Shown here one piece after another: positions 43,473 to 64,000 of a DNA stretch of 64,000 nt. This DNA comes from Ehretia macrophylla. Lineage: Eukaryota > Streptophyta > Magnoliopsida > Boraginales > Ehretiaceae. The position numbers and the translations under genes were made by a program. Below the pieces are notes generated by a model. It was not told where the DNA came from. It made no database searches and worked only from the letters and a program-made list of their open reading frames with translations. The DNA lies in the NCBI GenBank assembly GCA_037974665.1, contig CM075770.1, forward strand, positions 62,941,850-63,005,849, read 5' to 3'. Every line of letters starts with the position of its first letter. The first letter of the stretch is position 1.

Positions 43473-44857
43473 TTAAAACAAATTTTAGTTTTGGAATACA
43501 ACTTTGTCGCCGTATGGTGGCCATTAGCCACCAAACGGTAACAAAAAGTAAAAGTTTGGGGCCATTTGGTCGCCAATAGATATGAATGGTCTACAAATTA
43601 AAAATATAAATCAAATTGTTTATATAAATAAATAAATTCATTTATGTAGAATAAAACTAATAATATAAATCGAAAGCTGTTTTCAGATAATATAAAACAT
43701 ATTTGAAAATTTTAATGTTAAATAAATTTATTTATTTAATATAAAATTAAATAATTTATAATTTGTTATAACAAATTTTAGTTTTTGAATACCAATTTGT
43801 AGTCCCGTGATGGTCATTGGCCACCAAACGATGACAAAAAGTAAAAGTTTGGTGGCCATTTAGTCGCCAATATATATGAAGGTGCTACAAATTAAAAATA
43901 TAAATCAAATTGTTTATATATATAAATTCATTTATTCAGAATAAAATTAATAATATAAATCAAATGTTGTTTTTAGATAATATAAAACATATTTACAAAA
44001 TTTAATGTTAAATAAATTTAGTTATTTAATATAAAATTAATTAATTTACAATTTATTATAACAAATTTTAGTTTTTGAATACAACTTTGTCGCCACGTAG
44101 TGGCCATTGGCCACCAAATGGTGACAAAAAGTAAAAGTTTGGTGGCCATTTGGACGCCAATAGATATGAAGGGTCTACAAATTAAAAATATAAATCTAAT
44201 TATTTATATAAATAAATAAATTCATTTATTTAGAATAAAACTAATAATATAAATCAAAAGCTGTTTTTAGATAATATAAAACATATTTACAAAATTTATT
44301 GTTAAATAAATTTAGTTATTTAATGTAAAATTAATTAATTAATAATTTATTATATCAAATTTTCATTTTTGAATACCATTTTGAAGTGCCGTGGTGGCCA
44401 TTGGCCACCAAACGGCGACAAAAAGTAAAAGTTTGGGGGTCATTTGGTCGCCAATAGATGTGAAGGGCCAACAAATTAAAAATATAAATCAAAATGTTTA
44501 TATAAATAAATAAAATCATTTATTTATAATAAAATTAATAATATAAATCAAAAGTTGTTTTTAGTTAATATAAAACATATTTACAAAATTTAATGTTAAA
44601 TAAATTTAGTTATTTAATATAAAATTAATTAATTTATAATTTATTATAACAAATTTAAGTTTTTCAATCCAACTCTGTCATCACGTGGTGGCCATTGGCC
44701 ACCAAACGGAGACAAAAAGTAAAAGTTTGGTGGCCATTTGGTCACCAATAGATATGAAGGGTCTACAATTTAAAAATATCAATCAAATTGTTTATATAAA
44801 TAAATAAATTTGTTTATTTAGAATAAAACTAATAATATAAATCAAAAGTTGTTTTTA

Positions 44858-44885
44858 GATAATATAAAAGTTTGCTGGCCATTTG
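44858..44885 (+). repeat. Truncated satellite monomer (spacer-to-core fusion)
   Basis: The spacer GTTTTTAGATAATATAAAA runs straight into GTTTGCTGGCCATTTGGTCG. It skips the rest of the spacer and the left half of the next core, close to 200 bp. The word TAAAA is shared by both partners at the join, a likely microhomology. Confidence 0.8.
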
Positions 44886-45531
44886 GTCGCCAATAGATAT
44901 GAAGGGTCTACAAATTAAAAATATAAATCTAATTATTTATATAAATAAATAAATTCATTTATTTAGAATAAAACTAATAATATAAATCAAAAGCTGTTTT
45001 TAGATAATATAAAACATATTTACAAAATTTAATGTTAAATAAATTTAGTTATTTAATATAAAATTAAATAATTTATAATTTATTATAATAAATTTTAGTT
45101 TTTGAATACAATTTTGTAGCCCCGTGGTGGCCATTGCCCACCAAACGACGATAAAAAGTAAAAGTTTGGTTGCCATTTGGTCGCCAATAGATATGAAGGG
45201 GCTACAAATTAAAAATACAAATCAAACTGTTTATATAAATAAATAAATTTATTTATTTAGAATAAAATTAATAATATAAATCAAAAGTTGTTTTTAGATA
45301 ATATAAAAAAATTTACAAAATTTAATGTAAAATAAATTTAGTTATTTAGTGTAAAATTAAATAATTTATAAATTATTATAACAAATTTTAGTTTTTGAAT
45401 ACAACTTTGTCGTTGCGTGGTGGCCATTGGCCACCAAACGGTGACAAAAATTAAAAATTTGGTGGCCATTTGGTCGCCAATAGATATGAAGGGTCCACAA
45501 ATTAAAATTATAAATCAAATTGTTTATATAA

Positions 45532-45550
45532 ATATATATATATATATATT
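45532..45550. repeat. (TA)n microsatellite in satellite spacer
   Basis: An alternating TA run replaces the usual ATAAATAAATAAATTC spacer segment of this monomer. Confidence 0.85.
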
Positions 45551-45934
45551 CATTTATTTAGAATAAATTTAATAATATAAATAAAAAGTTGTTTTTAGAT
45601 AATATAAAACAAATTTACAAAATTTAATGTTAAACAAATTTAGTTATTTAATATAAAATTAATTAATTCATAATTTATTATAACAAATTTTAGTTTTTGA
45701 ATACAACTTTGTCGCTGCGTGGTGGCCATTGGCCTCCAAACGGCGACAAAAAGTAAAAGTTTGGTGGTCATTTGGTCACCAATAGATATGAAGGGTCTAC
45801 AAATTAAAAATATAAATCAAATTGTTTATATAAATAAATAAATTCATTTATTTAGAATAAAATTAATACAATAAATCAAAAGTTGTTTTTAGATAATATA
45901 AAACATATTTACAAAATTTAATGTTAAATAAATT

Positions 45935-45965
45935 TAGTTATTTAATATAGTAAATTTTAGTTTTC
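45935..45965 (+). repeat. Deleted satellite monomer
   Basis: TTTAATATAG joins directly to TAAATTTTAGTTTTCG. The usual AAAATTAATTAATTTATAAT and adjacent bases (about 30 bp) between the two ATA words are missing. Confidence 0.7.
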
Positions 45966-47440
45966 GAATACCATTTTGTAGGTCCGTGGTGGCCATTGGC
46001 CACCAAACGGCGACAAAAAGTAAAAGTTTGGTGGCCATTTGGTCACCAATAGATATGAAGGTGCTACAAATTGAAAATATAAATCAAAATGTTTATATAA
46101 ATAAATAAAATCATTTATTTAGAATAAAATTAATAATATAAATCAAAAGTTGTTTTTAGATAATATAAAACATATTTACAAAATATAATGTTAAGCAAAT
46201 TAAGTTATTTAATATAAAATTAATTAATTTATAATTTATTATAACAAATTCTTGTTTTAGAAAACCATTTTTTAGCCCCGTGGTGGCCATTGGCCACCAA
46301 ACGGCGACAAAAAGTAAAAGTTTGTTAGCCATTTGGTGGCTAATAGATATGAAGGAGCTACAAATTAAAAATATAAATCAAATTGTTTATATACTTAAAT
46401 AAATTCATTTAATTAGAATAAAATTAATAATATAAATCAAAAGTTATTTTCACATAATTTAAAACATATTAAAAAAATTTAATGTTAAATAAATTTAGTT
46501 ATTTAATATAAAATTAAATAATTTATAATTTATTATAACAAATTTTAGTTTTTGAATACCATTTTGTAGCCCCGTGGTGGCCATTGGCTACCAAACGACG
46601 ACAAAAAGTAAAAGTTTGGTGGCCATTTGGGCGCCAATAGATATGAAGGGACTACAAATTAAAAATATAAATCAAATTGTTTGTATAAATAAATTAATTC
46701 ATTTATTTAGAATAAAATTAATAATATAAATCAAAAGTTGTTTTTAGATAATATAATACATATTTACAAAATATAATGTTAAATAAATTAAGTTATTTAA
46801 TATAAAATTAAATAATTTATAATTTATTATAACAAATTTTGGTTTTTAAATACCATTTTTTAGCCCCGTGGTGGCCACTGGCCATCAAACTGCGACAAAA
46901 AGTAAAAGTTTGGTGGACATTTGGTCGCCAATAGATATGAAGGCCTACAAATTAAAAATATAAATCAAAATGTTTATATAAATAAATAAAATCATTTATT
47001 TAGAATGAAATTAATAATATAAATCAAAAGTTGTTTTTAGATAATATAAAACATATTTACAAAATTTATTGTTAAATAAATTTAGTTATTTAATATAAAA
47101 TTAATTAATTTATAATTTATTATAACAAATTTTAGTTTTTGAATACAACTTTGTCGCAGCATGGTGGCCATTGGCCACCAAACGGCGATAAAAAGTAAAA
47201 GTTTGGTGGCCATTTGGTCGCCAATAGATATGAAGGGTCTACAAATTAAAAATATAAATCAAATTGTTTATGTAAATAAGTAAATTCATTTATTTAGAAT
47301 AAAATTAATAATAAAAATCAAAAGTTGTTTTTAGATAATATAAAACATATTTACAAAATTTAATGTTAAATAAATTTAGTTATTGTAACATCCCGAACCC
47401 AACCCCTCGCTAAAGGTCAGGCTCAGACCCGTCACTCGGA

Positions 47441-47456
47441 CAGAGTCTCCTCTGTA
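47441..47456. other. Conserved LTR-terminal CAGAGTCTCCTCTGTA motif
   Basis: This imperfect inverted repeat lies close to the TGTAACG end of every family-A LTR here; the 5' LTR copy has one change. It also appears as CAGAGTCTCCCCTGT at 54500-54514 in the diverged family-C LTR. Conservation across families suggests a role near the LTR 3' end on the sense strand, for example RNA structure. The function is not known to me. Confidence 0.5.
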
Positions 47457-48057
47457 CCAAGGACAAAACTGTTAACTGCGAATAGTCACTTTTAACATTT
47501 GAACTATAAACAACAACTTATACAACCTATCTTTTAATATCTCCAAAGCCAAGTCAAATTCACAAGGCCATCCGAGCCTTGGAGCTACAACAATCTTCTT
47601 AAGCACACAAGCATGCGAGGTAAGTTGGTTTTAACCAAAAGTAGTTAGATACAATTATAATTTTAAGTTCTATATGTAGAATAATAAACACTCCAAGCAT
47701 GCAATAGAAGATGAAATCTAGAATCCATTATTACGATCCAACATCTTTCTCTAACATAGAAGGTCTTAAAATACAACATTTAACATGAACTCCACGCAAA
47801 CTCCACAAAAGATCCTCCTTAGCACACAAAGTCACGGATTCTGATCTATGTGAACTTCTTCTTCTTCCTCTACTTCTATCAGCTGGGGATTCACCTCAGC
47901 TTCTCCTGAAACATATTAAATGAGGAGTGAGCAACAATGTTGCCCAGCGAGGGAGGTGATGCAACATACCAGCGTGCAATATGATATGCAAACACAAGAA
48001 AACATATATATGCAACATAAACCAGCGAGATAGAAAGCCAAGTAATTAACCACATTA

Positions 48058-48357
48058 AAAGGATACGGTTCCACTTCAAGTCTTCAATCACGAGCCACGA
48101 ACCACGAACTTCACGAACATGCCGGCAAACCCCAAACACCAACAAGTTGGGATACTCCAGATGTATCCCGAATCCTACGACCCTTTCTCCCGAGGTAGGT
48201 CTATGCCCAGCAGGTGAACCACGCCTCTGGGGTAGTGGAGTATGCCTCAGCGAGAAGGGAATAGGCACCATGGTAGTCGAGGGAGCACGGCAAGCCCGAC
48301 GCCGCCCGTGTTTCTCGACACTACCATGTCCGAAAAGGTTGTGCAACCCCGAGACAA
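48058..48357 (-). other. LTR block conserved between families A and C
   Basis: This ~300-bp, GC-richer block runs from AAAGGATACGGTTC to CAACCCCGAGACAA. It is nearly the same at about 55191-55481 in the family-C solo LTR and again from about 63778 to the window end. The LTR sequence around it differs strongly between families. It includes CATGCCGGCAAACCCCAAAC, GGGATACTCC and CACGCCTCTGGGGTAGTGG, then the hairpin at 48269-48328. Confidence 0.75.
48269..48328. other. Predicted 60-nt hairpin in family-A LTR
   Basis: The left arm CATGGTAGTCGAG faces the right arm CTCGACACTACCATG. An inner CACGG/CCGTG pairing closes a small GC-rich loop. The same 60-nt span, with the outer CATGGTAG/CTACCATG arms intact, occurs at 55393-55452 in family C. 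The folding is predicted by eye only. Confidence 0.6.
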
Positions 48358-49692
48358 GTCACAAGCAATCAAGATATCACATAACACATAAGAGGGTCGA
48401 CAAAGTAGGCCGCCCTCACATATAAGCACAATATAAGTTCTCAATAGCACAAAAATAGCTTTAAAGTCCCAAAAGAAGCAATCAACATAACTTTGCCTCA
48501 CAATCAATTCAAATAGCTTTATTAAATTTTAGATGTTCAATACAATACATGATAACTTAACTATAAGTTCCAAATGCATCAAATATAGCTAAAACTACTT
48601 TTTCTCCTTTCTTTAACCAAACTTTCCTTCTCCTATGCTCATCTCAAGGTTTCCAAACTATCTTCTAGTCATCCTATTGTCCTAATTAAGCTAAAAGATA
48701 CCTAATAAGATCATAAAAACTCAATTTAGAAGATAAAGCTCGGGAAGGCTCTGAGTGGGTTTTAACTACAACTATACTAGCCGAGCCCCAAATTCACGTA
48801 ATGAAAGCACCAAAAGTGCTTCCTTACCCCAAGGATACCCGAATCATAGCCCAAACTTTCCCGGATTGCTCGACGAGAAAAGTCCCCTTTTTAAAGTCGA
48901 CTAAACCTCACCTGGCTTTTCAACTAACTTCACTAGGGCCTAGAGCATCTAATTGAAGTCTCAATTCAAGCTAATTAGCAATTTTTATTCAAACCCTAAA
49001 ACGTGCACTATTCATCATCTCTTTTGTTCAATCTCAACTTTCAACCATAAACATTGATAATAAGCTTCAAAAGTTAACTCTATAGCATCTATTAAGCATA
49101 TAATAAGCATGTATAACAAGTATTAGAGCTATAATCAACAAATTAAAAAAAATTCAACAAAGATGCATAAACTTTAACTTCAAAAAAAAAATGAACTCCC
49201 TCACCATTTAGAAGGCAAAGATGCGAAGTAGGAGCTCCTAGATGCCACGAAACCTTCCTAGACCAAGCCAAGAGCTCAAGATGCAAGATTGATGAAGCAA
49301 AAATCTTCTCTTTTCTCTTTGAGTGGGTCGGCCAAATGAAGGGGACAAGATGGGTATTTTGCTTTTTGTTTTGATGATCAAATTGTGTGTGTTGTTTTAA
49401 TTTTATGAATTTAGATTATTATATGTATATGTATGTCTATTAATTTAAGTTAAATAGTTCCAAAAACTTGATCCGTTAAGGCCAAAATGCAATTTTAAAT
49501 GTTTTTAGTTGCAATTAACACTATTCTTATGTAACACTATTCAAATGACATGAAAACTATTTTCTAAACGCACACTCCCAAGCTCGAAAGTCCAAAATGA
49601 CTAGGTCTCGATTCCTTCTAGATGTCGTATGATCTAGGAAAAATATGAAATCTAACTTTCGAGGCAGTCGAAAATTTTATGAACAGTGACCT

Positions 49693-50127
49693 CTAATAAA
49701 AACAATTAAGCAAGAAAGATGATGAACGTAGAAATGCGCAAATAGATATGTAACAGTTATAAAAAGATTTACGACAGAATTCTCGGGCGTCACACCCTCT
49801 CCCCCTTAAACTAATGGGGTCCTCGCAATGGTTACACCATTCGCCAAAGGGCTCCGCGTACTTCTCTTTGATTTGATCTTCTCGCTCCCAAGTGGCATCC
49901 TCAACCCCATGATGATTCCAAAGAACTTTTACCATAGGAATACTTTTAGTTCGAAGTTCCTGAATCTTTCGGTCAACCACTCGAAGAGGTTTCTCAACAT
50001 ATACTAAAGACTCATCAATTTCCAATGGTTCTGGCTCAATAATGTGCGACGGATCAAGATTATATTTCATCAATAGTGACACATGGAAACCATCATGAAT
50101 CCGGCCCAAACTCGGAGGTAATGCCAA
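49693..50127 (-). pseudogene. pol: Integrase C-terminus with chromodomain-like segment
   Basis: The first residues (LPPSLGRIHDGFHVSLL) are the conserved end of the integrase C-terminal domain in plant Ty3/gypsy elements. They are followed by a region with VDRKIQELR, VKVLWNHHG and DATWERED, the pattern of the degenerate chromodomain of Tekay-type chromoviruses, which is thought to guide integration into H3K9-methylated chromatin. It is separated from the upstream integrase by a frameshift close to 50127: TAC-GAT-TGG replaces the expected in-frame arrangement, consistent with loss of one base. The open frame runs through the polypurine tract and about 30 codons into the 3' LTR before a stop, so the native pol end is uncertain. 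Confidence 0.8.
49795..49810 (-). other. Polypurine tract (plus-strand primer site)
   Basis: On the minus strand TTTAAGGGGGAGAGGG immediately precedes the TGTGACGCCC start of the 3' LTR. This is the expected position and composition for the PPT that primes second-strand DNA synthesis in LTR retrotransposons. Confidence 0.9.
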
Positions 50128-51329
50128 TCGTAAGCTAAATCCCCAACCTTCTCAATGATTTCAAATGGTCCCACGTATCTAGGGCTAAGTTTACCTCCTT
50201 TTCTGTGTCAAATCAAACCTTTGCGCAGAGAGACTTTCAAAAATACACGTTCACCCTTTGAAAATACCAAGTCCCGTCAGCGTCTATCAGCATAATTCTT
50301 CTGTCGACTCTGAGCTGTAAGCATCATTTTCTTTATAAGTTTCACATTATCCACCATTTTTATCATCTTAGGAAGAATAGCAGGATCAACTGTTTTCATC
50401 TCACCTACCTCATTCCAATACAACGGAGACCTACATTTCCGCCCGTAAAGTGCTTTGTAGGGTGCCATGCCAATAGTAGCCTGATAATTGTTATTATAAG
50501 CAAACTCCGCTAAAGGTAGGTACTTCTCCCAATTCTTGCCAAAATCCAAAACACAAGCTCTCAACATGTCTTCCAGTATCCTGATAGTCCTCTCTGACTG
50601 GCCATCCGTCTGTGGGTGATATGCAGTACTAAAACTCAAATTAGTCCCCAAGGCCTTTTGTAGTTTATGCCAGAACTGTGATGTAAACCTGGGATCCCTG
50701 TCTGACACTATCTGAGATGGGACTCCATGCAATCTCACAATATTTTCAACATATAGCTTGGCCAATTTATCAAGAGAATCTGTTTTCTTTGTAGCAAAAA
50801 AATGTGAACTCTTTGTCAATCTGTCTACTACAACCCACACAGAATCATTACCTCGTGGTGATCTCGGCAAATCCGACACAAGGTCCATAGTAACCTAGTC
50901 CCATTTCCATATCGGAATCTCTAATGGCTGCAACAATCCTGCCGGCCTCTGATGTTCTGCCTTGACTTTCTGACAAGTCAAACACTTAGCTACGTAATCA
51001 GCTATCTCTCTCTTCATGTTGTTCCACCAGAAATTCTGTTTTAAATCTCTGTACATTTTAGTGCTTCCAGGATGAATCGTGTATTTAGAAGCATGAGCCT
51101 CAGCAAGAATCTCATCTTTCACAGTCGAATCACTAGGAATGCAGATTCTATTCATGTACTTGAGTAATCCATCATCATGCAATTTGAAGTCGGACTCTCC
51201 CCCTTTGGACTTCTCTAGAAGCTTCAATAACTGAGAATCTAATTGTTGCACTTCTCTGATTTTAGATAGCAATAGAGATTGGATTTGTAGGCTAGCAAAT
51301 TGAATACCTGATCTAGAAGCCTCTGGTTT
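50128..51329 (-). pseudogene. pol: Integrase domain, broken by stops
   Basis: The zinc-binding N-terminus is visible as an H-H-C-C pattern: AHASKYTIH, then CLTCQ. The catalytic core follows with all three DDE positions present: TMDL, SDRDPRF and QSERTI. The GPY-like part appears further on (LSPRYVGPFEII). In-frame stops lie at 50895-50897 (TAG, between WKWD and VTMD), 50277-50279 (TGA, after YADRR) and 50208-50210 (TGA). The two TGA stops sit where related proteins carry arginine, so CGA-to-TGA changes fit. The protein would join cDNA to the host chromosome, but this copy cannot make it. Confidence 0.9.
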
Positions 51330-51899
51330 TCACAAACAAAGCTCTTCTACAATCTCCCAGTCCTTGATTATCAAACTAGCCACAGAAGCTTTTCGGCTCA
51401 GTGCATCTGCTACAGTATTAGCTTTTCCCGGCAAATAGTTAATGGTACAATTATAATCATTTAACAGTTCTAGCCAACGCCTTTGCCTCATATTCAGATC
51501 TTTTTGAGAAAACATGTATTTTAAACTTTTATGGTTAGTAAATATTTCAAATTTATTCCCCTACAAATAATGGCGCCATTTCTTCAAAGCAAATACAACA
51601 GCAGCAAGCTCAAGATCATGTGTAGGATAATTGAGTTCATATGGTTTCAATTTCCTAGAGGCATATGCTATCACTTTACCATTTTGCATAAGAACACAAC
51701 CCAAACCTTCTTTCGAAGCATCACTGTAAATCACCAAGTTTTCAGTCCCCTTAGGCAAAGCAAGGATAGGTGCAGTGGTAAGTCCCTTTTTCAACTCCTA
51801 GAAACTGGCTTCACATCTATCATCCCAATTAAACACAGTTTTCTTCTGGGTTAATGTAGTCAAAGGTCCTGCAATCTTTGAAAAATCCTTAACAAATCG
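51330..51899 (-). pseudogene. pol: RNase H domain, broken by stops
   Basis: Recognisable motifs in order are [14 protein letters not shown] (first catalytic Asp), [20 protein letters not shown] (catalytic Glu) and [10 protein letters not shown], followed by [15 protein letters not shown] at the end of the domain. In the third motif the expected catalytic Asp of TDHKSLKY is Asn, a further inactivating change. Stops at 51798-51800 and 51561-51563 (TAG) and at 51330-51332 (TGA) interrupt it. The first TAG falls where relatives have Gln (SF-Q-ELK). In an intact element this domain degrades the RNA strand during reverse transcription. Confidence 0.9.
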
Positions 51900-52712
51900 C
51901 CACTAATAGCCCGCAAATCCCAAGAAACTACGGACTTCCGGGATAGTTTCAAGTCTTTTCCACGACATAACCACCTCAATTTTAGCAGGATCAATAGATA
52001 TTCCCTCCTGTGAAATGATATGACCTAAAAAGGCAACCTGTTTCAACCAGAATTCGCATTTGCTAAATTTGGCAAATAATTTATGTTCTTGCAGGGTTCG
52101 AAGCACAATTCTCAAATGTTCTTCATGCTCTGACTCAGATTTAGAATACATTAATATATCATCAATAAAAATCACAACAAACTGATCAAGATAGGGTCGA
52201 AATACTCTCTGCATCAAATCCATAAAGGCGGCTGGAGCATTTGTCAAACCAAATGGTAAAACAACAAACTCATAGTGGTCGTACCTGGTTCTAAATGCAG
52301 TCTTAGGTACATCCTCTTTCTGGATCCTCAACTGATAATAACCCTACCTCAGATCAAATTTAGAAAACACAACAGCACCCTGTAACTGATCAAACAACTC
52401 CTCAATTAAGGGCAAAGGATATTTATTTTTCACCGTCACCTGATTAAGACCTCGATAATCAATGCACAAACGCAGAATACCGTCTTTCTTTTTCACAAAT
52501 AACACGGGAGCACCCTACGGTGACTAACTAGGCCGAATAAAACCTTTCCCAAGTAAACCCTGTAGCTGAATTTTCAATTCCTGTAACTCAAGGGAAGCCA
52601 TTCTATATGGGGTTCTCGAAATAGGATTAGTCCTCGGCAACAAGTCAATCACAAACTTAATTTCCCTATCAGGTGGTAATCCAGGCAACTCCTCAGGGAA
52701 AGGCCCCGAAAA
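51900..52712 (-). pseudogene. pol: Reverse transcriptase domain, broken by stops
   Basis: Palm and finger motifs are clear: [32 protein letters not shown], the first catalytic Asp in [26 protein letters not shown], and the catalytic [10 protein letters not shown] box (about 52141-52175). [12 protein letters not shown] and [10 protein letters not shown] follow. Stops are TAG at 52524-52526 and 52515-52517 (in the SP-W-GAP region, so one replaces Trp), 52344-52346 (after DLR) and 51903-51905 (after FAGY). No frameshift occurs across the domain. Family knowledge: it copies the element RNA into cDNA using tRNA and polypurine primers. This copy is non-functional. Confidence 0.93.
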
Positions 52713-53408
52713 CTATTTTATAACAGGTACTTCATTCAATTTCAATTTATCTCCAGGCTGATTAATTAAATAAGCTAAGTATGCATCATAACCTTTACTC
52801 AACATTTTGGTAGCTTTAATGGATGATATAATACGAGTCCCAGTAGATTTTTGACTCCCAATTACTTTAATAACAGGTTGGTTAGATACTTCTAAAGTTA
52901 AAACTTTCCTCCTACAGTCCAAACATGCATAATATCGCCCCAACCAATCTATCCCCAAGATAACTTCAAAGTCCCGAAATGGCATGATTATCAAGTCAAT
53001 AGGATACATGCGACCCTCAATGCAAATATTACAATCTTTACACACAGACTCCGTAACAAATTTAGAACCCATTGGATTACCTACTTCAATCACATACGGT
53101 AGTTTATCAACTTTTAATGTAGCAGACTGTGCACATGCAGGAGTAATGAATAAATGTGTTGCCCCGGTGTCAATCAAAACTACTACCGGCTGGCTATTAA
53201 TAAGAAAAGTACATTCCACCACTACCGTCGTCTCTGGAAGCTCCTCCTGGTCAAGTGCAAATACCCGTGCCTGACCTCGCGGTATAGTAGCTGCTCCTGA
53301 AGCTCTAGTCTGGACACCCTGGCTTGAAGTCTGCCCCTGACCATATTTAAACTTGGGGAAATCTCTAACTCTATGCTGATCATTGCCACAACCTGTGCAA
53401 CGACCCAA
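52713..53408 (-). pseudogene. pol: Second zinc knuckle and aspartic protease domain
   Basis: The segment opens with a second knuckle-like motif, CTGCGNDQHRVRDF, in which the last zinc-binding Cys of C-x2-C-x4-H-x4-C is replaced by Phe. The retroviral-type aspartic protease follows, with active-site VVLIDTGATHLFI (about 53155-53195) and the later hydrophobic motif VILGIDWLGRY. A linker with a KGYDAYLAYL motif leads toward RT. It ends at a TAG (52713-52715). The protease would process the Gag-Pol polyprotein. The frame is continuous with gag upstream and RT downstream, so gag and pol were one ORF. Confidence 0.88.
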
Positions 53409-54425
53409 TTTCCTCTAACACTCAGCCTCTGTGTGGCCTTTACGGTTGCCATGAGTACATTGTAGATTCTTCTTAGTAGCAGCACCTCTTGTAGGGGCCC
53501 TATAAGTAGATGTAGCAGAACTACCCTGCTGAGATCTAGCAGTCACTGGTCGGGTCTGTGACTGTCCCTGTGGCTGGCTCTGAGCTAGTCTCGGCTGTAA
53601 CTGTACCTAAACTGGTCCTGGATAGCTCTGGGTCTGCCTAGGTTGCTGAGTCTGAACAGCCTGCTGATACTGCCTCTGATAACCTTGACTCTGAGACTGA
53701 AACTGACGTTTGCTTGACTGACTAGACTGAGCTAACACATCTGCCTTACGTTTCTCATATATCGATGCGACCTTGACTACTGTAGCATAGCTCAGATAAT
53801 CTTGCAAAGACAAATTAAGCATGATGTCACTCCTCAATCCTGTGATAAATCTTTGGATCTTCACATCCTTCGGCTGAACTAAAGCTGGCACATATCGAGA
53901 TAGTCTAGTAAAGGTAGCCTCATACTGGTCTACAATCATGTTCCCCTGTTTCAAAGCTATGAATTCATCTTGATGTCTCTCGCGAGCTACAACCGATACA
54001 TATTTATCCCGAAACTCACGAACAAAGTCAGCCCATACATGCTGGACCCTCTCAATATCCCATTTCTCTCTAATAGTACGCCACCACTCCTCGGCGTCAC
54101 CTTCCATTGAAAAGGCAGCATAGGTAATCTTTCTTTCATCGTTGCACTCAAGTATCGCAGCAACTTTCTCGAACTTACTCAACCACATCTCTGCTTTCAT
54201 GTTATCAAGCTCGCCATAAAAACTATATGCCCTGTGATGCAGGAATTTATCATACAAGTTACCTCCTGCAGCACCACTGCCCTCTGCTCTGGCAACCTGA
54301 TTACCCCTGCCGACACCTGCTGAACCACAAACTGAGCTATGGAATTCATTACGGTGGCCATTGTGGCCAAAATCTGGGCATTACTCGGTTCTTGACCCTG
54401 CGGTACATCCCCGGCTGCCCCTGCA
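53409..54425 (-). pseudogene. gag: Gag capsid region with first zinc knuckle
   Basis: The capsid part shows LYDKFLHHRAYSFYGELDN, a WLSKFEKVAAIL helix, GDAEEWWRTIREKW and FRDKYVSVVARERHQDEF. These are typical of Retrotrans_gag domains. A Gln/Ser-rich linker follows, then a knuckle CTHGNRKGHTEAEC whose second Cys is Gly. Stops (TAG) lie at 53607-53609 and 53415-53417; both read naturally as former CAG. Upstream of about 54300 the sense reading shifts frame (an MATVMNSIAQFVVQQ segment is in another frame), so an indel lies near 54300-54340. Gag would form the virus-like particle. The extreme N-terminus is displaced to 58584-58656 by the solo LTR. Confidence 0.88.
54421..54425. repeat. Left target-site duplication of the solo LTR
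   Basis: CTGCA directly precedes the solo LTR; CTGTA follows it at 58584-58588. One C/T difference separates the two, as expected for an aged 5-bp duplication. Confidence 0.75.
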
Positions 54426-55190
54426 TGTAACACCCCGATCCCTCACGAGATCAGAGTCCCGAACCCAAACCCGAGGCACGAAAAACGAGGGAAAACGGGC
54501 AGAGTCTCCCCTGTCTATAGGATATTCCAACACCTGTTTTTAGAGGAATTAACACACAAAACTACACAAATAACATAAGTCATTGAAATTCCCAAGATAA
54601 CGCTAATTATCTAGTCTTAGCAAAATAGTCTATATAAGGTTCTAGGTTAGTTAGCTAACAGTCTTAATATCCTCAAAAAATATTACAGACCGCTAGCCTA
54701 GGTGAACTTAAGCTTAGTTATATATTTACATTTATCAAATATTTACAAGGCACACAGGCCTCAAAAGATTTCATATTAACCACTACATTTACAAGAACTA
54801 CCACGCAACACTGCACAGGAACTCAAAAAGACTCCCGAGCCTCCTCCTCCGTCTCCAGAGGAACTGAACCTACCTCTCCTGAAATAGTTAAAGAGAAGAG
54901 GAATGAGTATACGTTATGAGTATACTTAGTGAGGGAGGTGTACGAATACCCGGAAAGGTTTTCACAAGATTCTCATGCAATGCAAATGAACAAGTGTATC
55001 ATGTAGCTCAAGTAACAATAAGACCAAGTGATAAAATCGATTGCAAGACTAAATGCTAACTCAAGGAGATAAAGCTATAAGCTCACTTTAGAAGTTTTGG
55101 CTCGGAAACAAATCATAAACAACAGTAAAACATCTCACACATTAACCAACACTTTAGTAGGAATACAATTATAAGTAACAATCATATTGA

Positions 55191-55481
55191 AAAGGATACG
55201 GTTCATCTTCTTGTTTTTAATCTCGAACCACGAGCTTTACGAACATGCCGGCAAACCCCAAACACCAACAATTGGGATACTCCGGATGTATCCCGATCCT
55301 ACGACCCTTTCTCCTGAGGTAGGTCCATGCCCAGCAGGTGAACCACGCCTCTGGGGTAGTGGAGTATGCCTCAGCGAGAAGGGAATATGCACCATGGTAG
55401 TCAAGAGAGCACGGCAAGCCCGATGCCGCCCGTATTTCTCGATGCTACCATGTCCGAAGAGGTTGCGCAACCCCGAGACAA
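55191..55481 (-). other. Conserved LTR block, family-C copy
   Basis: It aligns almost base for base with 48058-48357 and with 63778 onward, from AAAGGATACGGTTC to CAACCCCGAGACAA, while the flanking LTR sequence does not. ORFs crossing it on both strands give no recognisable protein. Confidence 0.75.
55393..55452. other. Predicted 60-nt hairpin in family-C LTR
   Basis: CATGGTAG pairs with CTACCATG at the base, with GAGA/TCTC and ACGG/CCGT pairing further in. It has the same length and position as the family-A hairpin at 48269-48328 despite several substitutions in the arms. Confidence 0.55.
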
Positions 55482-57630
55482 CATCACGAGATAGCAAATA
55501 AGCAGTACATACAACCTTTATCTTTTACTAGGCACAGAAATGAGGACAACAAAGTAGGTTGTCCTTATTCACGTAGTAATGGAATTAAGTAGTCAATATT
55601 GAATTTTAATTGAGGATGTGACTCTTTTAATCATGCATATAACTAAGCATTGATGAGTAAACATTAACTTATATAAGATTTACATGACTTCCCAGCAATT
55701 TAAAGTGAGCTTTTCTTTTAGGAAACGAAAGTACGCGCATTAGCTTATGTGGAATGAATAAATCAAATTAAAATGAATTGTTAATATTGAACCATTTCAA
55801 CTACTAACTGACTTTAGTAATTAGGGTAGTGATGATTCTTGAACTACTTTACTACTTAGGTCAAACGGCTTCCCAATGTCAATTAAATTCTACCTGCATA
55901 ATCCAGTTAACATGTAATAGTCACCAACTTTATTTCAGCTTGTTCGAATTAATTCTTTAAGCATCTTACACAATTCCTTAAGACATTTTAGCATTGCTAA
56001 TCCAATTACTAGTTAAAAGTATTAACTAGATAACACTAAACGCTCTAACTACCCCGTAGTTCAACTCATATTCAACTCCGATAGTACAAATAGTAGCACC
56101 TTCGTGAAGATAATAGAAGTAGTAATCAATTTAATGTTATCGATAACTACTTAAAATTTCTTACTAATAACAATGTTATTCATAACTACCCATAAACTAT
56201 ATACCAGCCGCAACATTATTTATTGCTATGCAATCATTTCATGCAGTAGTATGAAATTCTTTATCTAGAACCAGTAGACTTTAATCTAGAGCTTAACACA
56301 AGCTAACTATTTTAATGAGAGAAATACAGTGAGTTAAGCCCTTCAGGCCACATCAATCGAGTAGCCCATTAACACCTAAAATCTTCATATTCTAACCATA
56401 TTTACTAATCAACTTTACGAGCTTGGCTCAAATATAAACTCTTACGTTAAGTCTACCTATGTAACAGTTTTCCTTCACTTATTTTAAAACCATCTTCTTA
56501 ACCTTTATTTGTCCACCTAAGAGTTTCACACATAAGAAAAGAAAAAATAAAGATACAAGACTTAGCTACGAAACACGATCTTTACATAATAGTCATAGAG
56601 TAATTGGGAACAAGAAATTGAACAAGGAGATAACTTCCCAGCAGCTGCAAGCCGCTGGTAATGACTGTTCATTGCTGGCATAGGGACTGCCAACGCGGGG
56701 CAGTCAGCTATCCGTATTCCCACACCCCAAAACCCCATTCTTTAAAGCTTTTTGATGCAATGTTATGTTTATAATGCATGGGACTTAAGCTTGTAGGTCT
56801 GACCAAGTCTTAATTAGTTCACATAGAAGGTACTATAGGTTCTTTTTAGACATTCTACAAGCATATGATCTCCATTAAACTTCAGCCCAATAATCATTGA
56901 GTATTTCTAATCTTAAACCTAGCTAAGCAATTTCAGCACTTTGTTTCTCAAGAATCATAATCTTCATTATAATCAACTACCAACAACACATATAAATAAT
57001 TTAAATGCATAAAAACCAAGACTCCCTCATATGTTAACACCTAAAGAATTGCTCTACTACACTAATCTAGTTAATAATCCAAGTTTCTTGAAAGATTAAG
57101 CACATATATTACATACCCACTTACGATCAAGATTATAAACATGTTAACACACAAATATACACAAAGTTAGCACAAGTCCCTCACATGAATTAAGTCCCTG
57201 TCCACTACTTAACAATCTGCATAATGACTGAGAATCAATGAAAAATTTAAAGATTCACAGTGGCCTCAAGGGACTGCCCGCAGCAGCGCCGTAGCCTCAC
57301 AACCATCCACGTCGGTGGCAAACAACCACATCAGCGCCGGTACTCGGCGCCCACACACATAACAAAATCAATTAATACAGTTTGCTTACGATAATATGAG
57401 GTAAAAATCTGAAATTTCAAGCTAGATCATAAAATAATTTCAATCAACATTTCAAGGCTTAACAAATCTATAATTCCAATTAAACAACAAGATGCAAACC
57501 CTCACTTGATTCGAATACCCGCTTCGGATCTGCCTCCTACCCCTTTCGTCTAGCTTGCCGTCGGATAGAGAGGCTTTGTGCCCTAACAAAATTGTTATAT
57601 TCTCTTCTTCTTTTTCGCCCAAGTTGCAAC

Positions 57631-57631
57631 C

Positions 57632-57662
<31 letters not shown>
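57631..57662. repeat. CT/GA microsatellite in family-C LTR
   Basis: This is a near-perfect CT run, which reads GA on the LTR sense strand. GA-rich tracts in the same relative place occur in families A (49303-49320) and B (61122-61170), each upstream of a GTGAGGG word, which suggests transcript-leader sequence. Confidence 0.8.
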
Positions 57663-57714
57663 GCCCGATGGTATGCTAGTGGTGAGGAGAGGTTTCGATG
57701 TGTTGGTGAGGCGC

Positions 57715-57728
57715 CTGTGTGTGTGTGT
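57715..57728. repeat. Short GT run
   Basis: An alternating GT stretch ends in GTCGCGTGAGG. It lies in an ORF of 83 codons that is low-complexity and not convincing as a gene. Confidence 0.6.
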
Positions 57729-57841
57729 CGCGTGAGGGAGATGAAAAAAAATCAGAGTTGGTGGTTTTGTGTGGCTATGCGCGTGTGTGTAGTTGAGAGT
57801 AGGTGAGATAAAAATTTTATGTGGCTGGTTTGTTTTTGCTG

Positions 57842-57875
57842 TTTATTATTATTATTATTATTATTATTATAATTC

Positions 57876-57916
<41 letters not shown>
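57842..57916. repeat. ATT trinucleotide microsatellite
   Basis: About 75 bp of ATT repeats are interrupted once by AATTCTT. The minus-strand poly-Asn ORF over it is an artefact of the repeat. Confidence 0.9.
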
Positions 57917-58583
57917 TCCTATTGAAGACCTCAAAATCAAATAATTAGAATTAAAAGATCGGGTGTCTCAGAAATTCGCTCAGTCCCGACCCGGCTTCGT
58001 ACTCAATTTAAAGACCACCGATTAAAAGTACGTAAGATAAATTTAAATAACAATACAATTTATTAAGAATAATTATTCCGGAGCCAATTATTCCTTAAAT
58101 TAATTAAACGCAATTAATGAAATTAATAATTTATTAACTATTCTACATAAATCTATTATTTATAACTCATATATATCTAAAGAATAATTTAATAACAATA
58201 TAATCATTCTCACACTCGGGATTTCACACTAAATTAGCAATTTAGATTAATTATAATATTCACAATGTGACTTTTAATAAATAAAATTCTAAAGTAACTA
58301 AATAATTATTCTTGACAAGTTGATTAAATACAATTAAAATAATTATAATAATGAAATATTAACTGTTTGTTTCTCATAAAATAATTAAAAATAATAATAA
58401 TAATAATAATTGTTTCATGAAGTTTCATTACTCAATTTATTAATTATAGATAATAATGATAAGTAAAATTTCGGATTAAAAATCTAATTAAAATGAAATT
58501 TAATAAAATAAATATGCAATTTAGAAAAAAATAAACATGCAGATTTCTAATTAAAAATCTATATGCCAGGTCTGGGCGTCACA

Positions 58584-58656
58584 CTGTATCTTGCCCCGGT
58601 ACATCCTATCTGGGAGCTTCCTTCGGCTCTCTCCTTGGTCTACCCCGTCTCCCCAT
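58584..58656 (-). pseudogene. gag: Gag N-terminal fragment with start codon
   Basis: The ATG at 58654-58656 begins a short basic peptide MGRRGRPRREPKEAPR, typical of the Arg-rich Gag start in Tekay-like elements. Codon 17 is TAG (58606-58608), where CAG would be expected. The frame reaches the solo LTR seven codons later and resumes in the same frame on its far side at 54425 once one copy of the 5-bp duplication is discounted. The start lies about 300 nt downstream of the PBS, a reasonable leader length. Confidence 0.8.
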
Positions 58657-58951: not shown

Positions 58952-58963
58952 GCTCTGATACCA
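58952..58963 (-). other. Primer-binding site for initiator-Met tRNA
   Basis: On the minus strand TGGTATCAGAGC, the complement of the plant initiator-Met tRNA 3' end, begins 7 nt after the 5' LTR. It fixes the element's orientation and the inner LTR edge. Confidence 0.95.
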
Positions 58964-58970
58964 CCTAAAG

Positions 58971-59588
58971 TGTAACGCCCGAACCCAACCTCTCACTAAA
59001 GGTCAGGCTCGGACCTATCACTCGGATAGAGTCTCCTCTGTACCAAGGGCAAAACTCTTACCTGCGAATAGTCATTTTTAACATTTGAACTATAAACAAC
59101 AACTTATGCAACCTATCTTCTAATATCTCCAAAGCCAAGTCAAATTCACAAGGCCATCCGAGCCTTGGAGCAACAACAATCTTCTTAAGCCCACAAGCAT
59201 GTGAGGTAAGATGGTTTTAAACAAAAGTAGTTAGATACAGTTATAATTTTAAATTCTATATGTATGATAATAAACACTCCAAGCTTGCAATAGAAGATGA
59301 AATCTAGAATCCATTATTACAATTCAACATCTTTTTCTAACATACAAGATTTCAACTATCAACATATATACAAGACCCCAAGGTCTCAAAATACAACATT
59401 TAACATGAACTCTATGCAAATTGCACATAAGATCCACCTTAGCACACAAAGTCACGGATTCTGATCTATGTGAACTTCTTCTTCTTCCTCTACTTCTATC
59501 AGTTGGGGATTCACCTCAGCTTCTCCTGAAACATATTAAATGAGGAGTGAGCAACAATGTTACCCAGCAAGGGAGGTGATGCAACATA
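58971..59588 (-). mobile_element. Truncated 5' LTR, family A
   Basis: The 618 bp nearest the PBS match 47384 onward. The match then stops at GCAACATA, where the complete LTR continues CCAGCGTG. The outer ~1.8 kb (U3 and the promoter end on the sense strand) is missing and satellite follows at once, with ATA shared at the join. Confidence 0.92.
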
Positions 59589-60063
59589 AAATTAATTAAT
59601 TTATAATTTATTATAACTAATTTTAGTTTTTGAATACCAGTTTGTAGCCCCGTGGTGGCCATTGGCCACCAAACGGTGACAAAAAGTAAAAGTTTGGTGG
59701 CTATTTTGTCGCCAATAGATAGGAAGGGGCTACAAATTAAAAATATAAATCAAATTATTTATATAAATAAATAAATTCATTTATTTAGAATAAAATTAAT
59801 AATATAAATCAAAAGTTATTTTTAGATAATATAAAACATATTTACAAAATTTAATGTTAAATAAATTTAGTTATTTAATATAAAATTAATTAATTTATAA
59901 TTTATTATAACAAAATTTTAGTTTTTGAATACAACTTTGTCGCCGCGCGGTGGCCATTGGCCACCAAACGACGACAAAAAGTAAAAGTTTTGTTGCCATT
60001 TAGTCGCCAATAGATATGAAGGGGCTACAAATGAAAAATATAAATCAAATTGTTTATATAAAT
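59589..60063. repeat. Satellite remnant (~1.6 monomers) right of the element
   Basis: It has the same monomer as the main array, with cores at about 59645 and 59940. It starts at AAATTAATTAATTTATAA, only about 5 bp further along the monomer than where the array stopped at 47383. It ends at TTTATATAAAT against the next LTR. Confidence 0.95.
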
Positions 60064-60713
60064 TGTAACGCCCCGAACCCAACCCCACGCTATAGTCAGG
60101 CTCGGACCTGTCACTCGGACAGAGTCTCCTCTGTACCAAGGACAAACTGTTACCTGCGAATAGTCACTTATAACATTTGAACTATAAACAACAACTTATC
60201 TTCTAATTTTTCCAAAGCCAAAACAAAATCACAAGGCCATCTGAGCCATAGAGCAACAACAATCTACTTAAGCACACAAGCATGCGAGATAAGTTGGTTC
60301 TTGCCATAAGCAGTTAGACACAATAAAATTTTAAGTTCCATATGTAGGACAATAAACACTCCAAGCATGCAAGAGAAAATAAAGTCTAGAATCCATTATT
60401 ACAATTCAACATCTTTCCCTAACATTCAAGACTATAACTACTAACATATACACAAGACCCCAAGGTCTCAAAATACAATATTTAACATGAACTCCACGCA
60501 AGTTGCACATAAGATCCACCTTAGCACACAAAGTCACGGATTCTGATTTACGTGAACTTCTTCTTCTTCTTCTACTTCTAACAGTTGGGGATTCACCTCA
60601 GCTTCTCCTGAAACATTTCAAATGAGGAGTGAGCAACAAAGTTGCCCAGCGAGGGAGGTGATGCAACATACCAGCGTGCAATATGATATGCAAACACAAG
60701 AAAACATATATAA
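60064..60713 (-). mobile_element. Second family-A LTR fragment
   Basis: It begins TGTAACGCCCCGAACCC in satellite and follows the family-A LTR through GCAACATACCAGCGTGC to AAAACATATATAA, about 650 bp. A new TGTAAC end then starts at 60716. The rest of this LTR is not in the window, probably because a later element split it. Confidence 0.88.
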
Positions 60714-61012
60714 GTTGTAACAACCCAACCCGTGCATATAATTATTTTATTGATGTGCATATATTTATATGTCTACTTTAATTATTTATATATATTTGTT
60801 TGCATAAAATATCATATTTTTGGATTACGTGCATCTATTTCGTTTAACGTGTATTTATGTGCATTCACGTGCATTTAAGAGTTTTAAGTAACGTAGACAT
60901 TATTTAAGTGTTATCAATTTGCAAATAGAAACTAGATTTGTTAGATTTCAACTAAATGTCAAACTAGTAAATATCAAATTAGTTAAAGGGGCAAGATAGA
61001 CTTTTGAGTTTT

Positions 61013-61020
61013 TATAAAAA
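61013..61020 (+). promoter_or_regulatory. Candidate TATA box of the family-B LTR
   Basis: TATAAAAA lies about 70 bp upstream of CA- and GA-rich leader-like sequence, in an LTR whose orientation is fixed by homology. The call rests on motif and position only; AT-rich DNA makes chance matches common. Confidence 0.35.
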
Positions 61021-61084
61021 AATCCTACCTAATTTTGACCTTAATTAAAACAAATAAACTACACAAAACATACACATACAACAC

Positions 61085-61170
61085 GTTTCAGCACACACAC
61101 ACACAATTCAGCACACACACACACAGGGAGAGAAGGAAAAGAAGAAAACAAGGAAGAAGAAGAAGAAGAC
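61085..61170. repeat. CA repeats followed by a GA/GAA-rich tract
   Basis: Two ACACAC runs separated by AATTCAGC are followed by GGGAGAGAAGGAAAAGAAG and AAGAAGAAGAAG. This is the counterpart of the GA tracts in families A and C. Confidence 0.8.
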
Positions 61171-63080
61171 AGCTTTGTAAGATAAATTTTCATGCCATTC
61201 TTCATGTCTAGGTGAGGGAATTCATATTATTTGCATTCTATTTGGATTATTCAGCTATATGTATGCATGCTATGTTTTATGTGAGTGTTTAAAGATGTTG
61301 GAAATGTATGTTTAGCTAGAGTATTAGTATGCTAAAGGTTGTAGGAACTCATTAGTGCTCTTAGAATGAACTCTTGCATGCTATCTTTAGTTGTAGAGTT
61401 GCTTTGTTAACTAAGTGTAATTGTGTAATTTAGCTGTTTGTTAAATGTCCTAAATGAAGTGTAGGAATGTTATATAGGCTAAAGTAATGGTTATTGTTGG
61501 CTCAAATGCAAGAAATAACAAGAAGATGATAAGCAAGCAAAATTCAGATTTGGACACTGCACTGCCCCTGACTTACGAAGTAGTTTTGGTATAGCAAACG
61601 TGCTTAGAATTGAACGAAATTTATATGAAAGCTAGATTAGACAGTTTAGAACAAATGTTTATTTCTAGAGCTAAGGCAAATTCTAACGTTTTGACCCCAC
61701 GATTTAGCTATTTCCGAAATGTGTCTGAAAATCACTGGTGCAGGGGGCACTTTGCGCAGTTGCACGGAAAAGGTCATAACTTGTGGAATTTAGATCGGAA
61801 TTGAGTTTCGCTTGAGGCTAAAGTAATCTACACTCAAAGAGATACGTTTATAAATAAAAATTAGTCAGTTTGGAGGACTATAGCATAGGTAACTGAATAA
61901 ATAAAGTTAAGCATTTGCAAGAAATTGAAAGATGTTTTAGCTAGTTGATGATTGACATTAATGATTGTGATTGCTAGATAGTAAAATTATGGATTCTCAT
62001 TGTGTATATGTGTATATTGGAGTTAAATGATGGTTATAAGATATTCAATATGATTTATTAGGTGTTATGTTAACAATGTGGTATTTTGGTGTTGATTGTT
62101 AGTTAAATGAGAATTCTAGTGTTGTGGTTGTTGTTGTGTTAGGAGTGGGAGATAATAGATATTGCATGTTCAATGTTTGAAAGAATGCTTGTAAGAAGAT
62201 TGTGGGAGCTCAAGAAGAAATTAGCTAGCATGTATATTCATAAATATACAAGATTGGAGTTTTAGTTAGCTCTCACTGTATATATTGGAATTTCGAGTAA
62301 ATGAACTAACTACACCATGTGTACGTGTATGTGTGTTAAATTGAGGCTTCAATTAGGTGCTTTAGACGTTAGTGGAATGAGTCATAGGCTCACGTGGGAT
62401 TGAATTGCTCGAAAATGTGCTAAAATGCAAATTTAGTAATCTTTAAAAAGAGGATTTTTTCCGTTGTGCAATCCGGGCAAGTTTGTGCTATGGTTTGGAT
62501 ATCCTTGGGGTAAGGAAGCACTTTTGGTGCTTTCGTTACGCGAAATTGGGGCTCGGTTAGTATAGTTGTAGTTAAAACCCGCTCGGAGCCTTCCCGAGTT
62601 TTTTCTTCTAAAATGGGTTTTTATGATCTTAATAGGTGTCTCTTGGCTTGGTTGGGAATGTAGTATGGTTAGGTTGTGGGTTGGTAACGTTGAAATGCAC
62701 TTAGGAGAAGAAACGCTTAGTTAAGAAAGGGAAAAAATGTAGTAATTGGCTACCTAGAGCTTACTATTGTGTTGTCACATACTATTGTGTTTATCTAAAG
62801 CTAATTGAGCTATTTGAATTAGATTTTGGGTGAAGTTGTGTTGGTTGCCTCTTTTTGGGATTATATAGTTATCTCGTGCATATGTTGGTTATAATGTGTT
62901 TATGTGAGGGCAGCCAGTTGAGTTGCCATACTCCTTTTCTTCTTCTTTTAATTATATTGGTAACATAGGAAATGTGTTAGCTTGATAAAAGTTAGTATTG
63001 ACTTGTGAAATGTTTTCTTTAACTTGAGTTGTTATGGGCGTTGAGATAGGATTATCTTATTTTTGAGTTGTTATCAAGTC

Positions 63081-64000
63081 TGTAACGCCCTGAACCCAAC
63101 CCCACGCTAAAGTCAGGCTCGGACCCATCACTCGGACAGAGTCTCCTCTGTACCAAGGACAAAACTGTTACCTGTAAATAGTCACTCAATATATTTGAAC
63201 CATAAACAACAACTTATCCTCTAATATCTCCAAAGCCAAAACACAATCACAAGGCCATCCGAGCCTTGGAGCAACAACATTCTACTTAAGCACACAAGCA
63301 TGCGAGATAAGTTGATTTTAGCCATAAGTAGTTAGATACAATAAAATTCTAAGTTCCATATGTAGGGCAATAAACACTCCAAGCATGCAAGAGAAAATAA
63401 AGTCTAATTTCCATTATTACAATCCAACATCTTTCTCTAACATTCTAGTCCACAACTACTAGACATATACACAAGACCCCAAGGTCTCAAAATACATTAT
63501 TAACAAGAACTCCACGCAAGAAGCACATAAAATCCACCTCAGCACACAAAGTCACGGGTTATGATCTACGTGAACTTCTTCTTCTTCTTCTACTTCTAAC
63601 AGTTGGAGATTCACCTCAGCTTCTCCTGAAACATTTCAAATGAGGAGTGAGCAACAAAGTTGCCCAGCGAGGGAGGTAATGCAACATGCCAACGTGCAAT
63701 ATGATATGCAAACACAAGAAAACATATATAATCCACATAAACCAACAAGACAATAAGCCAAGCAATTAATCACTTTAAAAAGGATACGGTTCCACTTCCA
63801 GGTCTTCAATCACGAGCCACGAACCACGAGCATCACAAATATGCCGGCAAACCCCAAACACCAACAATTGGGATACTCCGGATGTATCCTGATCCTACGA
63901 CCCTTTCTCCCGAGGTAGGTCCATGCCCAATAGGTGAACCATGCCTCTGGGGTAGTGGAGTATGCCTCAGCGAGAAAGGGAATAGGTACCATGGTAGTCG
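63081..64000 (-). mobile_element. Third family-A LTR, running off the window
   Basis: It begins TGTAACGCCCTGAACCC after AAGTC inside the family-B LTR. It is colinear with 47384 onward through GCAACATGCCAACGTGC and the conserved block (from about 63778), and is cut by the window edge within the hairpin's left arm. It retains the ATACACAAGACCCCAAGGTC segment that the copy at 47384 has lost. Confidence 0.9.

Follow-up and report, generated by a model that had tools for sequence, protein, structure and literature searches.

Why should the stop codons of a dead gag-pol reading frame comprise TAG and TGA, with not a single TAA among them? The question is raised by a stretch of 64,000 nucleotides from Ehretia macrophylla (assembly GCA_037974665.1, contig CM075770.1, positions 62,941,850 to 63,005,849; hereafter the window), in which an old, truncated copy of a Ty3/gypsy-type long terminal repeat (LTR) retrotransposon lies on the minus strand within an AT-rich plant satellite array. 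An earlier inspection of the DNA letters (the sequence-only reading) had ascribed the stops mainly to deamination of methylated cytosine, and had cited the lack of TAA and of frameshifts as evidence. The stop pattern is real, explained and ordinary. It was very probably made by neutral decay of a dead element, mainly through deamination of methylated cytosines; the arguments from missing TAA and missing frameshifts carry little weight.

The stops and their reading frame

All 14 stops were found on the minus strand where the sequence-only reading had placed them. Eleven are TAG (plus-strand low coordinates 58606, 53607, 53415, 52713, 52524, 52515, 52344, 51903, 51798, 51561 and 50895), three are TGA (51330, 50277 and 50208) and none is TAA. 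The claim that a single frame runs through them from gag to integrase holds for 13 (10 TAG and three TGA), whose low coordinates are divisible by 3 and whose frame is free of TAA between 54380 and 50208. It does not hold for the stop at 58606, which belongs to another frame class, upstream of a nested insertion, and is separated from the main frame by a 10-nt deletion.

The window was compared with copies of the element in its own genome (1.58 Gb). The best 40 of 9,095 first-look candidates were scored, and 30 loci were used: the window itself plus 29 further copies. The ten matches at the end of the list were left unused. Ranked by similarity to a piece of the reverse transcriptase sequence, the sister copies are close copies and not a random sample. 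The two nearest (L004 and L005) were set apart because they resemble array-level duplicates, and the remaining 27 were counted; these share ancestry, so their pooled counts are not independent events. The gag-start region was compared in seven sister copies, with L034 and L038 not aligning there.

The statement that no frameshift occurs over about 4.2 kb proved right for about 4.1 kb and wrong at the edges, where deletions of 10 nt and 1 nt are found. All five copies that align across the first are 10 nt longer than the window (L005 was also tried and ends short of the site). At the second, around 50120-50139, 27 of the 28 same-genome copies covered are 1 nt longer, and of 122 public proteins with a match there, 104 have it in two or more frames. 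Both deletions shift the frame, and an insertion of 4.2 kb also lies at the stretch's edges, so the absence of indels does not stand as an argument. Furthermore, between the window and eight of the 27 sister copies this stretch shows no difference in length that would break the frame, and 4.1 kb without one is therefore not remarkable.

Substitutions by sequence context

Changes in the window copy were counted at positions with agreement among 85% or more of the other copies. C:G>T:A changes were found at 9/108 CG (8.3%), 22/295 CHG (7.5%; H being A, C or T) and 22/994 CHH sites (2.2%), with A/T>G/C transitions at 10/2273 (0.44%) and 22 transversions. Both CHG and CG exceed CHH (Fisher test, P 6.5e-5 and 0.0019, respectively), and this excess in the comparison with own-genome copies is what the sequence-only reading had anticipated. 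The 27 copies pooled show similar rates (CG 174/2492 or.070; CHG 441/6525 or.068; CHH 622/25338 or.0245; A/T>G/C 334/60418 or.0055), which indicates that the window copy is typical. Among the pooled CHG subcontexts, CCG (22/617) falls below CAG (226/2955) and CTG (193/2953). Within CHH, the pooled copies (L006-L032) show higher values for CAC (.039) and CAT (.033) than for CAA (.024), CTA (.021) and CCA (.014).

Two weaker tests agree in part. Between the two LTRs of the window copy, changes at CG (9/24) are in clear excess, with CHG at 3/29 and CHH at 13/179. Protein columns whose residue is common to 80% or more of the public relatives give rates of.13 for CG,.08 for CHG,.03 for CHH and.004 for A/T>G/C. 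The satellite array, taken as a control, also shows C:G>T:A changes at CG (93/1118) above CHH (354/6935), with A/T>G/C at 384/34700; as no CHG column passed the filter, the contrast covers CG and CHH only. An excess at CG is thus not peculiar to the element. Base-composition indices are not decisive: the coding part is enriched in CAG/CTG (1.45), as its codon usage would lead one to expect.

Missing TAA and strand symmetry

The probability of finding no TAA among 13 main-frame stops is 0.005 under equal substitution, 0.027 if C:G>T:A is favoured regardless of context, and 0.09 with context rates fitted from the conserved protein columns. In the 27 sister copies, in-frame stops at 118 sites comprise 157 TAG, 51 TGA and nine TAA, a spectrum under which 0 of 13 is expected (P 0.58). 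TAA is absent from 20 of these copies, and CAG-rich codon usage contributes to its scarcity as much as methylation does; its absence in the window thus loses the special evidential value that it had been given. The window frame has 61 CAG and 18 CAA codons, and the family majority codons include 69 CAG and 12 CAA sites. TAA is missing because CAA, its one-step transition source, is scarce and slow to decay: the 12 CAA sites (323 instances) yielded only two TAA.

Decay at CAG is symmetric. CAG-majority sites, with 1,820 instances in the 27 copies, gave 120 TAG and 120 CAA; counted per site, 60 of the 69 show TAG and 59 show CAA, and singletons number 29 TAG and 27 CAA. CGA (n = 348 instances) gave 19 TGA and 17 CAA, and in the window copy the two strands have changed at similar rates (C>T 27/630, G>A 34/954). 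A nonsense TAG that is as frequent as a silent CAA at the symmetric CHG site points to unselected, two-strand deamination. From these counts the copies appear to have decayed without selection since insertion, of which the equality of TAG and CAA is a clean sign.

Ancestral codons at the stops

Up to 27 sister copies cover the 13 main-frame stops, and their commonest codon is CAG at four, TGG at four, CGA at two, and at the other three a codon from which a stop requires a transversion, different in each case. The 14th stop (58606) corresponds to CAG in four of four distant copies and to TAG in two array neighbours. The 14 together therefore give five CAG, four TGG, two CGA and three transversions. 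By context (the 14th added by hand), five are CHG, two CG, four CHH, all of these at TGG codons, and three transversions, so that a C:G>T:A change fits 11 of the 14. The expectation that several TAGs would stand for glutamine (CAG) and one for tryptophan was correct as to CAG, the commonest codon at five stops, and too low as to TGG, found at four. Likewise, CAG or CGA had been expected at most stops and is found at exactly seven of 14, or 11 with TGG counted.

Public protein relatives gave at least 10 aligned sequences at nine of the 14 stops, with family-wide residues of R, R, W, Q, mixed H/R/Q, S, Y, Y and V. Taken alone, these suggested that four of the nine stops were not made by deamination; this was misleading, and the same-genome copies changed the answer. 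Three stops retried with short pieces gave one column of mostly E/D (98/107), one mixed column and one with no aligned relative. A search of public proteins with the gag-protease part scored 4,696 candidates, none of which reached E 1e-20.

Probable decay by deamination and what weighs against it

The spectrum, contexts and strand symmetry of the changes, repeated in the sister copies, suggest the following course. An element free of selection would decay neutrally, its cytosines methylated in the manner of plants, strongly at CG and CHG and weakly at CHH. Spontaneous deamination of 5-methylcytosine would turn C:G into T:A on both strands. Glutamine codons being mostly CAG, CHG deamination on the coding strand would yield TAG, and on the other strand the silent CAA; CG deamination would convert CGA to TGA or CAA, and TGG would become TAG or TGA. 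TAA would have nearly no source, and a minority of stops (three of 14) would be ordinary transversions.

Several observations weigh against this account. No copy among the 27 is stop-free in its aligned pieces (1-14 stops each), and the ancestral codons are accordingly majority inferences among decayed copies rather than readings from intact members. Three of the 14 stops need transversions and four lie at CHH, so that CG and CHG directly explain only seven. The proposal that methylated-cytosine deamination is the main cause is largely right, the context bias speaking for it, but its direct account covers half of the stops. The lower CCG rate is seen only when copies are pooled, the window counts (CCG 2/29, CAG 7/133, CTG 13/133) being too few. 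Between the two LTRs, the CHG rate does not exceed that at CHH (P = 0.47). For changes unique to one copy, CG does not exceed CHH (31/108 vs 251/994, P 0.42), perhaps because CG sites have changed repeatedly, in different copies; for CHG the excess over CHH remains (104/295, P 0.001).

A further, rather doubtful possibility is that the family's ledger of stops and synonymous codons is a fossil methylome that might record long-term maintenance of the CMT3 type. This is suggested by the equality of CAG>TAG and CAG>CAA, the near equality of CGA>TGA and CGA>CAA, and a CCG rate about half that of CAG and CTG. If true, non-CG methylation of the past could be reconstructed from the DNA letters by themselves where a species has no methylation data.

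Alternative explanations

Codon usage and a general C:G>T:A bias, with no methylation context, might make the stop spectrum by themselves. CAG is indeed far commoner than CAA in both window and family, and the corresponding probability of 0.027 is not impossibly small. However, per instance CAG became TAG in 120/1820 cases and CAA became TAA in 2/323, and CHG lies significantly above CHH across the coding region, which leaves this explanation improbable on its own. Codon usage does supply half of the answer, but not the whole. The C:G>T:A excess and the many stops in one copy could also recall APOBEC-like hypermutation during reverse transcription. This would mark one strand, whereas here both strands are hit alike, CAG>TAG equals CAG>CAA, and the stops are scattered across copies (118 sites in 27 copies). 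Plants are not known to have an APOBEC-like enzyme, and we regard hypermutation of this kind as exceedingly improbable. Repeat-induced point mutation is a fungal process.

A long frame with TAG as its main stop superficially resembles recoding, in which TAG is read through or reassigned and the frame is still in use. The sister codons at the stops are varied, however (CAG, TGG, CGA and three others), TGA is used as well, and the frame is broken by both deletions and the 4.2-kb insertion, so that the probability of recoding is close to nil. Inheritance of the stops from a defective master copy, rather than their origin after insertion, is very unlikely. Two of the 13 main-frame stops do occur in both nearest copies, and the 14th in both array neighbours, but L004 and L005 seem to have arisen from this very insertion by duplication at the level of the array, and the stops in common with them therefore predate that duplication. 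Moreover, any given one of the 13 stops recurs in just 0-5 of 26-27 other copies, which fits recurrent hits at hot sites, and no copy with most of the same stops was found among the 29 compared, drawn from the best 40 of 9,095 candidates. Of the window's C:G>T:A changes, 44 are private and 17 are common with a nearest copy. Decay after insertion suffices: some 10 main-frame stops are expected from the LTR-pair rates and some nine from the own-genome rates (calculated by hand), against 13 seen. Of the 584 bases aligned between the two LTRs, 37 differ, and the LTRs also show two differences in length.

The element, its surroundings and its history

The features of the window that bear on the element are the following.

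1-47383, plus strand: AT-rich satellite array, repeat of about 294 nt, about 20% GC, surrounding the element
47384-49794, minus strand: 3' LTR, 2,411 bp, TGTGACGCC...GTTACA, adjoining satellite at 47383; ends located, and LTR seen in self-comparison
49693-50127, minus strand: open reading frame of 144 aa in a frame other than the main one, with integrase tail and weak chromodomain match
50120-50139, minus strand: 1-nt deletion (frameshift) in the window lineage, near the integrase C terminus
50145-54260, minus strand: single-frame remnant of gag-pol carrying 13 stops (10 TAG, three TGA), domain matches in order
54315-54322 (about 54319), minus strand: 10-nt deletion (frameshift) in gag in the window lineage, from sister-copy alignment
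54426-58583, minus strand: nested solo-LTR-like insertion in gag, 4,158 bp, TGTGACGCC...GTGTTACA
58584-58656, minus strand: gag start, containing the 14th stop (TAG, 58606-58608); ATG at 58656-58654
58953-58963, minus strand: primer-binding-site-like TGGTATCAGAG, directly inside the 5' LTR
58971-59588, minus strand: 5' LTR, truncated, with satellite junction at 59588/59589; from self-comparison

Membership in Ty3/gypsy is indicated by the domain order of gag, protease, reverse transcriptase, RNase H and integrase, and by paired LTRs with TG...CA ends, the outer end of the 5' LTR having been lost by truncation at 59588. A piecewise profile search gave matches above cut-off, in minus-strand order, to Retrotrans_gag, RVP_2, RVT_1, RT_RNaseH and Integrase_H2C2. 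The rve match, in order with the other domains, is just below cut-off (31.3 vs 32.6 bits), and the chromodomain (PF00385) in the last open reading frame scores 19.9 bits, under the cut-off of 25.1 (E 7e-4). The element may belong to a Tekay/Del-like clade of chromoviruses, and the TGGTATCAGAG motif is a putative initiator tRNA-Met site.

The nested insertion is flanked by a 5-bp target duplication with one base differing between its two sides (judged by eye). It is absent from all five aligning copies, in which the empty site is contiguous and gap-free over 155 bases. With the host LTR it has a block of about 320 bp in common (89%), and self-comparison gave no other block; its source is perhaps a related family whose LTRs are very long.

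L034 and L036, which lie on this contig beside the nearest copies at distances of about 90 and 118 kb, have the same junction between 5' LTR and satellite. Together with the two main-frame stops common to both nearest copies and the 14th stop present in both neighbours, this suggests that the truncated element was probably copied along with its satellite surroundings. L036 lacks both the nested LTR and the 10-nt deletion, which indicates that both probably arose later than the array copying. In a neighbouring copy, L004/L033 (L033:6370-8501), an LTR end directly adjoins integrase sequence (window 50467), and this copy appears to have been interrupted or recombined at another place than the window copy.

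Satellite sequence fills 47 kb near 62.94 Mb of 107 Mb, a location that is possibly centromeric or pericentromeric. It is also present at 59589-60063, and a step of 145 nt was seen once, in 44000-47400. Further LTR ends at 60064-60713 and 63081-64000 are 92% alike over 652 bp, and the 2.4 kb between them contain an LTR block in inverted orientation with 75% similarity (62432-62915). The sequences in 60064-64000 are likely nested or rearranged relatives.

Comparison with known systems

What looked like a striking stop pattern becomes a quantified and ordinary outcome, in which CAG-rich codon usage and CG/CHG deamination can be separated as ingredients. For first-pass readings this is a caution, in that TAG and TGA without TAA are to be expected in dead plant Ty3/gypsy copies with such codon usage. 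Among the titles and abstract openings listed in a literature search, none concerned the stop-codon spectra of plant retrotransposons. In its gag-PR-RT-RNaseH-IN order and long LTRs, and perhaps in its weak C-terminal chromodomain match, the element is like Ty3/gypsy chromoviruses; unlike a typical chromovirus, the window copy is truncated, interrupted and ridden with stops.

Methylation-driven decay of plant retrotransposons and of silenced nuclear DNA is already established, according to the parts of two papers drawn on here (PMC8275611; PMC6376042). In Welwitschia, GC loss in silenced LTR retrotransposons has been attributed to deamination of methylated cytosine, and the decay described here is of the same kind; the portion of that work considered argues from GC content and methylation levels, whereas the present case is built on the sequence contexts and stop codons of one family (PMC8275611). 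Plastid DNA in plant nuclei (NUPTs) likewise has an excess of C>T and G>A, linked in the portion considered to cytosine methylation (PMC6376042). The same excess in nuclear DNA is found here, but for NUPTs the ancestral state comes from the plastid genome, while here polarity is taken from the majority of the copies compared (PMC6376042).

The CMT3 and CMT2 preferences seen in plant methylomes offer a further comparison, again within the part of the source used. There, the densest CHH methylation is at CAA/CTA in Arabidopsis and maize and at CAA/CAT in tomato (PMC5221884). CHH decay in the family differs, with CAC and CAT exceeding CAA and CTA, unlike the heterochromatin preference of Arabidopsis and maize (PMC5221884). 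CCG is less methylated than CAG and CTG in those methylomes, and the pooled decay of the family, a mutational trace only, ranks CCG below CAG and CTG just as measured methylation does (PMC5221884).

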